Positions 17,335 to 30,601 of a DNA stretch of 41,852 nt are shown piece after piece. Below the pieces are notes generated by a model. The model did no database searches. It saw nothing but the letters and a program-made list of their open reading frames with translations, and had not been told where the DNA came from. The stretch is taken from IMG/VR virus record IMGVR_UViG_3300046485_000029, positions 1-41,852 of that record, one strand, 5' to 3'. The stretch comes from a virus. A program made the position numbers and the translations under genes. Every line of letters starts with the position of its first letter. Position 1 is the first letter of the stretch.

Positions 17335-17706
17335 ATGATTCAGAGAAGCCTTTTTGACGCACTCCAAACAGACAAGAACCAGTCCGAGAAGCTCATGGAG
17401 ATCGTCGAGCAGTCGGTTCACCGCATCGGCCTCAAGGAGTTCTCCTTTCTTATATCCAAAGAAGGATCCCACGTTCGGGATGCCATTTCCGGTAATGGGA
17501 AACACTTCTCGTCAACCTGGCTTATCACCCTGCTTAATCGTGATAACCGCTTCGCTTCCGAGTTCATTAATTACCTTTGCGATCTAACCGGCAAGGAACA
17601 TCCGAAAGAGCGTAAGCAGCTGCCCCCTGAGGAAAAATTGAAGAGATACGCTGCAATTATCGAGAAGCACAAGCTTCAGGACCTTTTTATGGAGGCATCC
17701 AAATGA
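17335..17706 (+). CDS. Putative early regulator (CII-like position)
   Basis: This 123-aa protein starts at ATG 17335 with CTGAGGAGGTATCG just upstream, and no ribosome site fits the earlier in-frame ATG at 17287. It is helical. A region SKEGSHVRDAISGNGKHFSS…ITLLNRD followed by a segment ending NYLCDLTGKE resembles the layout of phage CII/CP76-type regulators, but no clear HTH can be assigned. It is second in the rightward early operon, the usual CII position. ATGA couples it to the next gene. Confidence 0.55.
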   Translation: MIQRSLFDALQTDKNQSEKLMEIVEQSVHRIGLKEFSFLISKEGSHVRDAISGNGKHFSSTWLITLLNRDNRFASEFINYLCDLTGKEHPKERKQLPPEEKLKRYAAIIEKHKLQDLFMEASK

Positions 17707-17984
17707 CGATCCTAACCGAAGCCGAGATCAGGGAGCGCTTCAAATTAACCGGTGGCTTCATCGAGAAGCACAGCAGAAATATGGGCAATCTCAGCCGCAA
17801 TCCCCGCACGTTCATCCTGTCCCGCGTCGAGGCCTATATCGAGAGCCTGGCGAGCAAGAAGGCGGCGAAGGTGTCTCCTGAACTGGAGAAGGCCAGGCAG
17901 AAGCGAGAATTCAATCAGTTGTTTGAAGAGTCTCGGCGGGCGATAGAGGCGAAGAAGCTCAGAAGGAAGGTGGCAAATGCATAG
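17703..17984 (+). CDS. Putative MerR/excisionase-like DNA-binding protein
   Basis: This 93-aa protein is coupled by ATGA to the gene before it. Residues about 5-48 (LTEAEIRERFKLTGGFIEKHSRNMG…RNPRTFILSRVEAYIES) follow the plan of small excisionase-type winged helix proteins: an initial helix-turn-helix, a short wing, then a helix ending in VEAYI. The second half is a basic, Glu/Lys/Arg-rich helix. It may be the recombination directionality factor or another early regulator. Its last codons overlap the next gene and carry that gene's strong ribosome site. Confidence 0.5.
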   Translation: MTILTEAEIRERFKLTGGFIEKHSRNMGNLSRNPRTFILSRVEAYIESLASKKAAKVSPELEKARQKREFNQLFEESRRAIEAKKLRRKVANA

Positions 17985-18334
17985 CCAATCTTCTTTTCTA
18001 CCCCTTCCAAGACGCGATCTCACTCCGCGACAAAGGCATCCAGCGCGCGGTCGAGCATGCCGAAAAGGTAGAGCCTAACTGGACGGAGCAGGCGCTCAAC
18101 TTTATTGAGAGCTACTGTCACAGCCACTTCACCTTTACCGGCGAGGATATCCGGGCGGCGGCGGCGGGCGTCGTACCGGTCCCTGTGACGCTCAGGGCAT
18201 GGGGCGGAGTTATCAGGATGGCAGCAGTGCGCGGCTGGATCGTGCAGATCGGATTTCACCAGTGTAATAACCCTAAGGCACATCGTGCTAACGCCGCGCG
18301 GTGGCAATCGAGGTTGACATGGACTGCTCAGTGA
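17981..18334 (+). CDS. Conserved-type phage protein with probable AUA start
   Basis: The frame is open from 17927 to the TGA at 18332-18334 but has no ATG, GTG or TTG before the protein-like part begins. AGAAGGAAGGTGG (17961-17973) ends 7 bases before ATA 17981, exactly where a start belongs, and ATAG overlaps the upstream stop as ATGA overlaps do elsewhere. The 117-aa product is protein-like (LRDKGIQRAVEHAEK, WTEQALNFIESY, FTFTGEDIRAAA, AWGGVIRMAAVRGWI, an H-x-x-x-A-x-R-W end). I read it as a small winged-helix phage protein. It could also be a start-codon mutant. Confidence 0.6.
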   Translation: MANLLFYPFQDAISLRDKGIQRAVEHAEKVEPNWTEQALNFIESYCHSHFTFTGEDIRAAAAGVVPVPVTLRAWGGVIRMAAVRGWIVQIGFHQCNNPKAHRANAARWQSRLTWTAQ

Positions 18335-18432
18335 TTTGCTGGATTTGTTTAAGCGAAGGCGTCTGTACGAAGAAAGAGAAAGGCGCGGTGACGGAATGTA
18401 TCGACTTTACGGAAATAGGGGAGGTCTCATGA
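18319..18432 (+). CDS. Small Cys-rich protein (37 aa)
   Basis: ATG 18319 has GAGGT 5 bases upstream and lies inside the end of the preceding gene, and its TGA overlaps the next start as ATGA. Cysteines at residues 3, 7, 10, 16 and 27 include a C-x3-C-x2-C cluster that could bind metal. Coupling at both ends supports a real gene. The product was not recognised. Confidence 0.5.
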   Translation: MDCSVICWICLSEGVCTKKEKGAVTECIDFTEIGEVS

Positions 18433-19164: not shown

Positions 19165-19452
19165 ATGAAAGGAAAGTATTGCATCGTCAGGACTCAGTCA
19201 GCAGGAGTTTTCGCAGGGACCGTGAAGAGCATAAAGGGGAAGGAAGCGGTCTTGACTGACGCTCGCCGTCTCTGGTATTGGGCCGGAGCAGCGTCTCTTT
19301 CCCAGATGGCAGTCGATGGCACCAAAGACCCGAAGAACTGCAAATTCCCCGTGGCGGTCCCGGAGGTTTTATTAACGGAAGTCATCGAGGTTATTCCAGC
19401 AACCGAGCAGGCCAGAGCCTCAATATCAGGAGTGCCTGTATGGGAAAAATAA
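19165..19452 (+). CDS. DUF6948-like protein, copy A
   Basis: This 95-aa protein matches what I recall of the DUF6948 family: a Y-C-I-V-R-T-x-SAGV opening, TDARRLWYW at about 32-40, and VPEVLLTEVIEVIP near the end. It is common in phages, with no function known to me. Copy B at 19863 differs at only 5 residues, yet has many silent changes between codons 10 and 55 and near-identity afterwards. The start is supported by CTAAGGAGATT. The last 13 bases overlap the start of the Gly-repeat gene, so the two are probably translated together. Confidence 0.75.
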   Translation: MKGKYCIVRTQSAGVFAGTVKSIKGKEAVLTDARRLWYWAGAASLSQMAVDGTKDPKNCKFPVAVPEVLLTEVIEVIPATEQARASISGVPVWEK

Positions 19453-19715
19453 ATTCCGGTGACGGTGACGGTTCCGGTTCCGGTTACGGTTCCGGTGACG
19501 GTTACGGTGACGGTTCCGGTGACGGTTTCGGTTCCGGTTACGGTTCCGGTTACGGTTACGGTTCCGGTTCCGGTTACGGTTACGGTGACGGTGACGGTTC
19601 CGGTTCCGGTTACGGTTCCGGTTCCGGTGACGGTGACGGTTCCGGTTCCGGTTACGGTTACGGTTACGGTTACGGTTCCGGTTACGGTTACGGTGACGGT
19701 GACGGTTCCGGTTAA
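19440..19715 (+). CDS. (Gly-Ser/Asp/Tyr)n repeat protein, copy A (91 aa)
   Basis: ATG lies inside the end of the DUF6948-like gene (overlap ATGGGAAAAATAA). After MGKIN the product is an unbroken alternation of Gly with Ser, Asp or Tyr (one Phe), about 43 dipeptides. The DNA is hexamers GGTTCC, GGTGAC and GGTTAC, so unit gain or loss keeps the frame. There is no signal peptide and no charged residue except Asp. The ordering looks irregular, not a simple long unit. A disordered or stacked-sheet (silk-like) protein is possible. Its function is unknown, but a second copy with different codons argues for selection on the peptide. Confidence 0.65.
   Translation: MGKINSGDGDGSGSGYGSGDGYGDGSGDGFGSGYGSGYGYGSGSGYGYGDGDGSGSGYGSGSGDGDGSGSGYGYGYGYGSGYGYGDGDGSG
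19456..19713 (+). repeat. Hexanucleotide repeat array GGT-(TCC/GAC/TAC)
   Basis: About 43 tandem hexamers of three kinds, coding in frame for Gly-Ser, Gly-Asp and Gly-Tyr. Other frames give meaningless Val-Thr/Pro or Arg-Asn/His repeats. Confidence 0.9.
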
Positions 19716-19862: not shown

Positions 19863-20150
19863 ATGAAAGGAAAGTATTGCATCGTCAGGACGTATTCAGC
19901 AGGAGTCTTCGCAGGGACCGTAAAAAGCATCAAGGGGAAGCACGCCGTATTAACCGACGCTCGTCGCTTGTGGTACTGGTCGGGAGCTGCTTCGCTTTCG
20001 CAGATGGCCGTCGACGGCACCAAAGACCCGAAGAACTGCAAATTCCCCGTGGCGGTCCCGGAGGTTTTGTTAACGGAAGTTATCGAGGTTATCCCTGCAA
20101 CCGAGAAGGCCAGAGCCTCAATATCAGGAGTGCCTGTATGGGAAAGGTAA
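19863..20150 (+). CDS. DUF6948-like protein, copy B
   Basis: This 95-aa paralogue of the 19165 product differs at residues 11, 27, 40, 82 and 95. The middle third of the gene shows many synonymous differences, whereas codons about 55-75 and the last 15 are almost identical in DNA. This suggests selection on the protein plus local gene conversion. TDARRLWYW and VPEVLLTEVIEVIP are kept. The ribosome site is the same as in copy A. The end overlaps the start of the second Gly-repeat gene by 13 bases, repeating the two-gene layout. Confidence 0.75.
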   Translation: MKGKYCIVRTYSAGVFAGTVKSIKGKHAVLTDARRLWYWSGAASLSQMAVDGTKDPKNCKFPVAVPEVLLTEVIEVIPATEKARASISGVPVWER

Positions 20151-20233
20151 TTAATGGGTCTGGGTCTGGGTCTGGGGATGGGTATGGGGATGGGGATGGG
20201 TATGGGGATGGGTATGGGGATGGGGATGGGTAG
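20138..20233 (+). CDS. (Gly-Ser/Asp/Tyr)n repeat protein, copy B (31 aa)
   Basis: ATG lies inside the end of copy B of the DUF6948-like gene. After MGKVIN the product alternates Gly with Ser, Asp or Tyr for about 12 dipeptides and ends at TAG. Copy A codes the same pattern with GGT plus TCC/GAC/TAC, whereas this one uses GGG plus TCT/GAT/TAT, so the repeats did not arise by simple copying. It is about a third of the length of copy A. Its function is unknown. Confidence 0.6.
   Translation: MGKVINGSGSGSGDGYGDGDGYGDGYGDGDG
20156..20230 (+). repeat. G-run array with G-quadruplex potential
   Basis: Repeated GGG or GGGG runs separated by 2-3 bases (TCT, AT, TAT) fill the Gly-repeat gene of copy B. 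The + strand (the mRNA sense) easily satisfies the G3-N1-7 rule several times over. Copy A, with GGT codons, lacks such runs. Confidence 0.75.
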
Positions 20234-25749: not shown

Positions 25750-26038
25750 GAGAAATAGGATTCTTCGCTCTGAGCGCCTTGCGGCAGCACGCCTAAAAGC
25801 TACTCATACAAAAGAAGAATGGGAAGCTCTCAAGCTGGAATTTGATGACCGATGCGTCAAGTGTGGGTGCGAGGGATATCTTTTAGACAAAGATCACATA
25901 ATTCCACTTTATCAGGGGGGTAGCGATGGGATAAAAAACATTCAGCCATTATGTGCGCGGTGTAATGCTGGAAAGGGCCCGGATGATTTTAACTGGGTTG
26001 AACATCGGAGGAAAAATGGCTTGGCTAAGACTGTATGA
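25736..26038 (+). CDS. HNH endonuclease
   Basis: This 100-aa protein uses GTG 25736 with GGAGTAA upstream, and it overlaps the previous gene by 14 bases. The zinc pair CVKCG, the DKDHIIP motif (the first catalytic His), N-I-Q-P-L and CARCNAGKG are the full HNH signature. It nicks or cuts DNA. Free-standing HNH proteins near the terminase help packaging in some phages. Here it lies in the replication region, so it may instead be a homing-type or repair nuclease. Confidence 0.88.
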   Translation: MDRHKRNRILRSERLAAARLKATHTKEEWEALKLEFDDRCVKCGCEGYLLDKDHIIPLYQGGSDGIKNIQPLCARCNAGKGPDDFNWVEHRRKNGLAKTV

Positions 26039-26660
26039 CGACCTCATAGATGACGAGAAGCAAGCAAAGATGAGTGACCGGACCTTCAGGGTTTTCATAC
26101 TCCTTCTTTGCTATGCCAAGCAGCTCAATAATAATGGCAAGATCGAGAAGCCACTTTCTGACATTGCATGGAGGATTCGTAAGGACATAAAGACACTAAC
26201 GGCCTCCTTAAATGACATGCAATCTCTTCGGATTATCACATTTAATGAGCAGGGCGTAACGTTCATAAATTGGGACAAGAGGCAGTTTCAATCTGATGGC
26301 TCATATGAAAGAGTGAAACGTTTCAGAAACGGTAAGAGAAACGATGATGCGCCGTTACAGAAACGGCACCAGAGTACAGAGTCAGATACAGAGTCAGATA
26401 CAGAGTCAGATACAGATAAGAAAAAGAAAAAAAGAAAATCCCCCATCCCCCCTGAATTTGATATTTCTGAAAGAGTAAAGTTATGGGCTGAAAAAAATGG
26501 GCTCGAAAAACTAGAAGAGCATTTAGACGCATTCAAAAGAAAGGTGGCCGCGAAAGGCTACGAATACATCGACTGGGATTCTGCTTTCATGGAGGCCATT
26601 CGCGAAGACTGGGCGAAATTAAATGGCAAAAAGAAAGGAGCCGGATATTTTGATTCCTGA
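26016..26660 (+). CDS. Replication initiation protein (lambda O / DnaD-like)
   Basis: The product is 214 aa from ATG 26016, chosen for CGGAGGAAAA upstream. The N-terminal 110 residues look like the winged-helix domain of phage replisome organisers: MAWLRLYDDLIDDEKQAKMS, LSDIAWRIRKDIKTLTASLNDM, FINWDKRQFQSD. A Lys/Arg linker follows (TESDT repeats, KKKKKRK), then a C-terminal helical domain with YIDWDSAFMEAIREDW that is typical of the end of such proteins. The gene carries iterons, as lambda O does. Confidence 0.8.
   Translation: MAWLRLYDDLIDDEKQAKMSDRTFRVFILLLCYAKQLNNNGKIEKPLSDIAWRIRKDIKTLTASLNDMQSLRIITFNEQGVTFINWDKRQFQSDGSYERVKRFRNGKRNDDAPLQKRHQSTESDTESDTESDTDKKKKKRKSPIPPEFDISERVKLWAEKNGLEKLEEHLDAFKRKVAAKGYEYIDWDSAFMEAIREDWAKLNGKKKGAGYFDS
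26376..26417 (+). repeat. Iterons: three 12-bp repeats, candidate replication origin
   Basis: ACAGAGTCAGAT occurs at 26376, 26388 and 26400 plus half a unit at 26412, followed by an A-rich stretch to 26438. Inverted repeats GAAACGTTTC (26315-26324) and CCGTT-ACAGA-AACGG lie upstream. Lambda ori has the same plan inside gene O. Confidence 0.6.
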
Positions 26661-29340: not shown

Positions 29341-30601
29341 CGTACTCCTGGAAAAAAAGGTTCAGTTCCCTCACAAGCTAGAGTTCTTGTTTAATCCTTC
29401 GAGGTACAAGGTTGTATACGGCGGCCGAGGCGGAGCAAAGTCATGGGGCATCGCAAGATCTTTAATCCTTCTCGCTACTCAGTCGCCGCTTAGAATTCTG
29501 TGCGCTCGCGAATTTCAAAACTCTATCCAGGACAGTGTTCACCGGCTGCTCTCTGATCAGATTGAAGCGATGGGCCTTTCCGCTTTCTTCGAGATCACGC
29601 TGACTAACATTAAGGGGCTGAACGGATCGTTGTTTATCTTCTATGGCATTAAGAACAATCCCACGAAGATCAAGTCCACAGAGGGTATTGATATCGCTTG
29701 GGTTGAGGAAGCGGAGACAGTCAGCAACGAGTCCTGGCAGATCCTCATTCCCACTATCCGAAAGAATGGGTCTGAGATCTGGATGTCGTTCAATCCGAAT
29801 CAGGAAACAGACCCGACCTATCGGCGCTTCATAACGACTCCGCCCGATAATGCCGCCGTTGTGCCGATGAGCTGGCGTGACAATCCGTGGTTCCCCGAGG
29901 AGCTGCGCAAGGAAAAAGATTACCTCGCCCGCGTGGACATGGATGCATATGAGCATGTATGGGAAGGCAAGTGCCGGCAGATGTCCAATGCTCAAATCTT
30001 CAAGGGGAAATATCGCGTTGAATCGTTTGACCCACAACCTGAGTGGCAGGGACCTTACTTCGGCGCCGATTGGGGCTTTGCGCAAGACCCGACAACGCTT
30101 GTAAAAATGTGGATCGGTGGCGCGAAACTCTACGTTGAGAAGGAGCTGTATAAGATCGGGCTTGATATAGACTTCACGCCTACTGAGTTCGACAAGATCC
30201 CTGAGGCCAGGCTACACGCAATCAGGGCTGATAGTGCCCGGCCTGAGACGATTAGCTATATGCAACGGCATGGCTACGGAAACCTTGTAGGCGTGGATAA
30301 GTGGCCAGGAAGCGTTGAAGAGGGGATCACAATCCTCCGCTCGTTTGAGGAGATAGTTGTTCATCCTAGCTGCATCCATACTGCCGAAGAGATGCGTCTT
30401 TATTCGTATAAGACCGACAAGCTGACCGGCGACGTGTTGCCGGAAATAGTAGACAAGCACAATCACTGCATCGATCCGATCCGTTACGGGTTGCAGCCGA
30501 TCATCAAGACTAGTGGTAACACTGGCTTTCTTGATTATCTGGCAGGGTTGGCGGCAGAGAAAGCAGCACAGAAAAAAGCCGAAGAAGCATCGAAAAATTG
30601 A
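29333..30601 (+). CDS. terL: Terminase large subunit
   Basis: This 422-aa packaging motor uses GTG 29333. The ATPase has Walker A GGRGGAKS (30-37), Walker B IAWVEEAE (121-128) and a coupling region near MSFNPN (151-156). The nuclease domain has Asp246 in GADWGFAQDPT, Asp300 in IRADSA and Asp381 near NHCIDPIRY. This is the PBSX/Sf6-like Terminase_3 type of usual length. It pumps DNA into the prohead and cuts it. Headful or cos mode cannot be decided from the sequence. Confidence 0.95.
   Translation: MSSVLLEKKVQFPHKLEFLFNPSRYKVVYGGRGGAKSWGIARSLILLATQSPLRILCAREFQNSIQDSVHRLLSDQIEAMGLSAFFEITLTNIKGLNGSLFIFYGIKNNPTKIKSTEGIDIAWVEEAETVSNESWQILIPTIRKNGSEIWMSFNPNQETDPTYRRFITTPPDNAAVVPMSWRDNPWFPEELRKEKDYLARVDMDAYEHVWEGKCRQMSNAQIFKGKYRVESFDPQPEWQGPYFGADWGFAQDPTTLVKMWIGGAKLYVEKELYKIGLDIDFTPTEFDKIPEARLHAIRADSARPETISYMQRHGYGNLVGVDKWPGSVEEGITILRSFEEIVVHPSCIHTAEEMRLYSYKTDKLTGDVLPEIVDKHNHCIDPIRYGLQPIIKTSGNTGFLDYLAGLAAEKAAQKKAEEASKN

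Follow-up and report, generated by a model that had tools for sequence, protein, structure and literature searches.

The reading frame at positions 17927-18334 of the viral record IMGVR_UViG_3300046485_000029 encodes a real member of the phage protein family PHROG 27658 and has no usable canonical start codon. The window, that is the whole stretch of 41,852 nucleotides that was analysed, carries an ATA codon about where a start would be expected, and an ATG in another frame lies just upstream of it. The reading that we favour, with a probability of roughly 0.55, is that the gene started at this ATG (17977) and was broken by one base, through mutation or in the record. The two codons, their spacings, the homology and the relation between the frames are direct observations; we infer that ATG 17977 is the true start, past or present, and that the break is an indel. 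The probability given here, like the grading of the alternatives below, is a judgement in which spacing, an argument from the upstream stop codon and the rarity of AUA starts were weighed against codon usage.

A conserved gene without a canonical start in its own frame

The frame is open from stop to stop over 135 codons on the plus strand (17927-18334). Counted from the ATA codon, the conserved reading frame (17981-18334) comprises 117 codons followed by TGA, with a product of about 116 aa. Residues 12-110 of this product match positions 7-97 of the 99 in the PHROG 27658 profile (E 1.2e-12), the best tblastn match is an IMG/VR phage protein with 50% identity over residues 3-111, and the coding score of the frame is on par with that of other genes of similar length; together, these results place the frame beyond chance. 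PHROG 27658 consists of phage proteins of unknown function, and its profile is matched across most of the window protein. All 17 aligned members, which come from IMG/VR contigs, phage records, and one plasmid, also match this family.

An AlphaFold2 model based on 13 sequences has a confident fold (mean pLDDT 84.9), with low confidence for residues 1-7 and a helix from residue 9. The nearest solved structures found by Foldseek are mostly MarR/PadR-like winged-helix proteins, but every E value lies above 0.001, so the winged-helix assignment is a hint at the level of the fold only. The best viral models by structure comparison are mostly uncharacterised phage proteins. The gene lies in an early operon, flanked by a Cro-like gene and recombination genes, and this genomic place suits the function suggested by the model, in which the product is probably a small winged-helix DNA-binding protein. 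The gene immediately upstream (17703-17984, plus strand) encodes 93 aa and ends with a TAG stop at 17982-17984. At the other end, a tiny Cys-containing ORF of 37 aa (18319-18432, MDCSVICWICLSEG...), without a PHROG match, has a 16-nt overlap with the conserved gene at its end.

The earliest in-frame ATG, GTG, or TTG is GTG 18185, which lies well within the conserved domain, and a start there would cost over half of that domain. A codon-usage scan of the plus strand found about 51 coding-like frames, and 17927-18334 is the sole one without a usable ATG, GTG, or TTG. The original prediction of a conserved-looking gene without these codons is thus borne out. Relatives are usually free-standing ORFs with a canonical start, a property outside the definition of the profile, and the window copy departs from them in this respect. 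The missing start bears on the expression of the gene, not on its sequence homology.

Several repeats were observed elsewhere in the window. Two near-identical genes of 95 aa (19165-19452 and 19863-20150, MKGKYCIVRT...), each with an array of 6-bp repeats after it, are probably a recent cassette duplication. The first array, about 43 tandem copies of a 6-bp unit (19457-19714), gives rise to an ATG-started ORF (19440-19715) consisting almost wholly of Gly-Asp/Ser/Tyr dipeptides; the second (ATGGGT) lies at 20154-20232. In addition, a 12-bp tandem repeat (26370-26416, CAGATACAGAGT, 3.8 copies) inside a replication-initiation-like gene (25953-26660) is possibly an origin iteron array.

The start region

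The ATA codon proposed as an AUA start (17981-17983, plus strand) forms an ATAG overlap with the TAG of the upstream gene. The overlap is there as originally described, mirroring overlaps of the ATGA type, but it is not a simple one-base decay of that type: the last base of ATG, GTG, and TTG alike is G, which at 17983 would destroy the upstream TAG. A single ATG-to-ATA change at 17981, which had been offered as an alternative, is for the same reason less plausible than it first appears.

The original prediction overlooked an ATG in the third frame (17977-17979), 4 bases upstream of the ATA, which is better spaced from the ribosome site. It opens an ORF of 33 codons (17977-18078, plus strand) that ends with TAA at 18076-18078. 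The presumed ribosome site is the purine-rich tract AGAAGGAAGGTGG (17961-17973, plus strand), 13 bases long and ending 7 bases before the ATA, exactly as had been reported. When spacing is aligned by pairing with the 16S tail, the SD lies 6 nt from ATG 17977 and 10 nt from ATA 17981. The mean among the 33 other genes of the window with a detectable site is 5.5 nt; 10 nt occurs in only two of these 33, and is the largest value seen for genes of this phage. The best ungapped SD pairing amounts to only about -3.6 kcal/mol. The context of ATG 17977 (GGCAAATG) resembles that of the genes at 17703 (TCCAAATG) and 18677 (GGCAAATG), and an 8-nt overlap (ATGCATAG) links the ATG with the upstream stop, an arrangement also seen for GTG 29333 and the gene before it. 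Chance rates do not decide between the two codons, since an ATG stands 3-9 nt downstream at about 9% of internal SD-like sites, and an ATA in a given frame stands at 3-12 nt for about 5% of them.

Both codons also lie in the 9-nt loop (AAATGCATA) of a predicted RNA hairpin (17962-17997, plus strand, -13.5 kcal/mol), in which the first codons, rich in pyrimidines, pair with the purine tract and would sequester the ribosome site. The hairpin ranks among the strongest start-site structures in the window; its z score is -2.9 on a stretch of 41 nt picked post hoc and -0.4 on a stretch of 81 nt.

In the favoured reading, the gene would be an ordinary phage early gene with ATG 17977 as its natural start. 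The purine-rich ribosome site would serve this ATG, with translation coupled to the upstream gene, and a one-base frame difference, probably in the first few codons past the ATG, would separate it from the conserved frame. The break itself would stem from a genuine, recent frameshift mutation or from a fault of the record. At any position between about 17980 and 18019 (plus strand), an offset of one base brings ATG 17977 into the conserved frame with no stop met, and this interval contains the runs TTTT (17994-17997) and CCCC (18001-18004). Over 17984-18001, codon usage prefers the ATA frame to the ATG frame by 11-23 to 1. This makes a late break, such as one at CCCC, unlikely and calls for an early indel, but it does not distinguish initiation at AUA from a break very soon after the ATG. 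The family profile does not discriminate between the candidate N-termini, because the first residues of the homologues are too variable: one-base joins at 40 positions score about 115 to 116 bits up to 18008 and 113 to 115 bits beyond it, and the ATA version, at 115.7 bits, is within about 1 bit of the joins up to 18008.

Two counterpoints apply to this reading and to its main competitor. The other genes that were checked gave no sign of a frame break, and the record is therefore not generally error-ridden; conversely, an AUA-started gene would be the lone exception among about 51 coding frames. A second frame break had been suspected at the end of the terminase gene (30522-30601), and was rejected since the gene that follows has an ATG of its own (30612), served by a GGAGG site.

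Homologues and alternative readings

The homologues inspected are free-standing genes, each read in a single frame from a canonical start. They begin with ATG, apart from one on a 77.6-kb viral contig (1435-1842 of L016) that has no ATG near the expected start and only GTG 1465 or TTG 1435 in reach. This gene was dismissed as a second start-less case because the GTG covers for the missing ATG. No AUA start was identified among the homologues inspected in this comparison, which had been suggested with the original prediction, and this counts against the use of AUA. IMG/VR protein scans were queried with the window protein or its family, as well as with other proteins of the window phage. IMG/VR proteins, degenerate DNA patterns, tblastn against phages and plasmids, a genome scan, and the 398 genomes searched from a single phylum yielded no relative with more than 50% identity, nor any near relative whose frame is intact; near-identical records may have been kept out of these searches, and two loci from the genome scan were spurious. 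As judged by sequence identity, which reaches 50% at best, none of the relatives is close enough to decide the start question.

The strongest alternative is initiation at AUA 17981 itself, with fMet. Such a start would be weak, aided by re-used ribosomes from the overlapping TAG, and would give a low protein level. We regard it as possible, though on balance unlikely. Codon usage suits the ATA frame from its second codon onwards (likelihood ratio 11-23), and in a MAFFT alignment the ATA residue falls in the start-methionine column of most homologues, within an N-terminus that is too variable to settle the matter. Natural cases also exist in bacteria, in which ATA stands in place of the usual start codon, as it may here. 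The genes infC, ccpN, and citZ of S. aureus have natural AUA starts, and an extended SD is predicted to direct their selection at infC and ccpN; noncanonical sites tested by reporter in this species yielded about 10% of AUG output, and up to 30% for ccpN (PMC13009471). Natural ATG-to-ATA variants of L. monocytogenes rsbW occur in an overlapping gene pair, rsbV-rsbW, which resembles the overlap at 17703/17981; less than 0.3% of core ORFs in Listeria use rare or flexible starts (PMC13068326). These bacterial starts have an extended SD or experimental support, whereas the SD before this gene is weak and mis-spaced and has an ATG nearby. A strong, well-spaced SD would be expected for an AUA-started gene, and here ATG 17977 is the codon better served. 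The ATG also competes with the ATA from 4 nt upstream in the hairpin loop that they share, an ancestral canonical codon at 17981 would have left the upstream gene without its stop, and no AUA-started homologue was identified. The original "probable AUA start" is thus partly supported: the gene and its lack of a canonical in-frame start stand, while the use of AUA is judged less likely than a frame break.

An elaboration of AUA initiation, which we consider improbable, is that a temperate phage uses such a start to throttle a small early protein that binds DNA, with the AUA in a hairpin loop beside a decoy AUG and with output tied to termination at the upstream UAG.

Similarly improbable is a start at ATG 17977 after which some ribosomes shift +1 in the first codons, so that the conserved protein is made at a low, regulated level. 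The original prediction had sought only a slippery heptamer, and CCC-C at 18001-18004 is an obvious slip site of a known +1-prone sequence. In E. coli, slippage at a CCC-C placed at codon 2 amounts to up to about 1% (PMC4519876), and the Listeria phages PSA, A118, and A500 rely on +1 shifts at CCC codons for proline (PMC5009743), where, as here, the CCC codon is in the incoming frame and the conserved frame lies at +1. However, the window site differs from those of the Listeria phages in having no 3' stop, no stable downstream structure, and no conservation. The codon after CCC-C is CUU, which is neither a stop nor one of those that this phage uses least; in a pseudoknot-free model, the RNA downstream of the site is no more stably folded than shuffled sequences (z 0.15); codon usage ahead of CCC-C favours the ATA frame and opposes coding in the incoming frame; and none of the inspected homologues needs a shift, so that the split frame is not conserved. 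The marks of programmed +1 shifting, namely a slow codon, stop, or stimulator at the slip site and a split frame in relatives, were thus not observed.

Lastly, a -1 shift from the upstream gene, raised with the original prediction, would be in frame between 17927 and 17984, where the conserved frame is already open, but the resulting fusion protein is very improbable and was rejected, as no slippery heptamer is seen (in agreement with the first reading of the sequence), the inspected homologues stand alone, and the 17703 product has no relative in IMG/VR by the search run; a +1 shift from ATG 17977 is the one that merits consideration.

Implications for annotation and expression

Gene annotation that relies on a canonical start would miss this protein, whether the frame is broken or begins at AUA. 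If AUA is not used, the case illustrates how what looks like a near-cognate start may instead reflect a frame break that conceals a better-placed ATG. If the hairpin is real, expression would depend on translation of the upstream gene, regardless of which of the two codons is used. Throttling at the start codon is known mostly from a few bacterial genes, and should AUA initiation or +1 recoding prove true, this gene would be a phage case of it, acting on a probable regulator.
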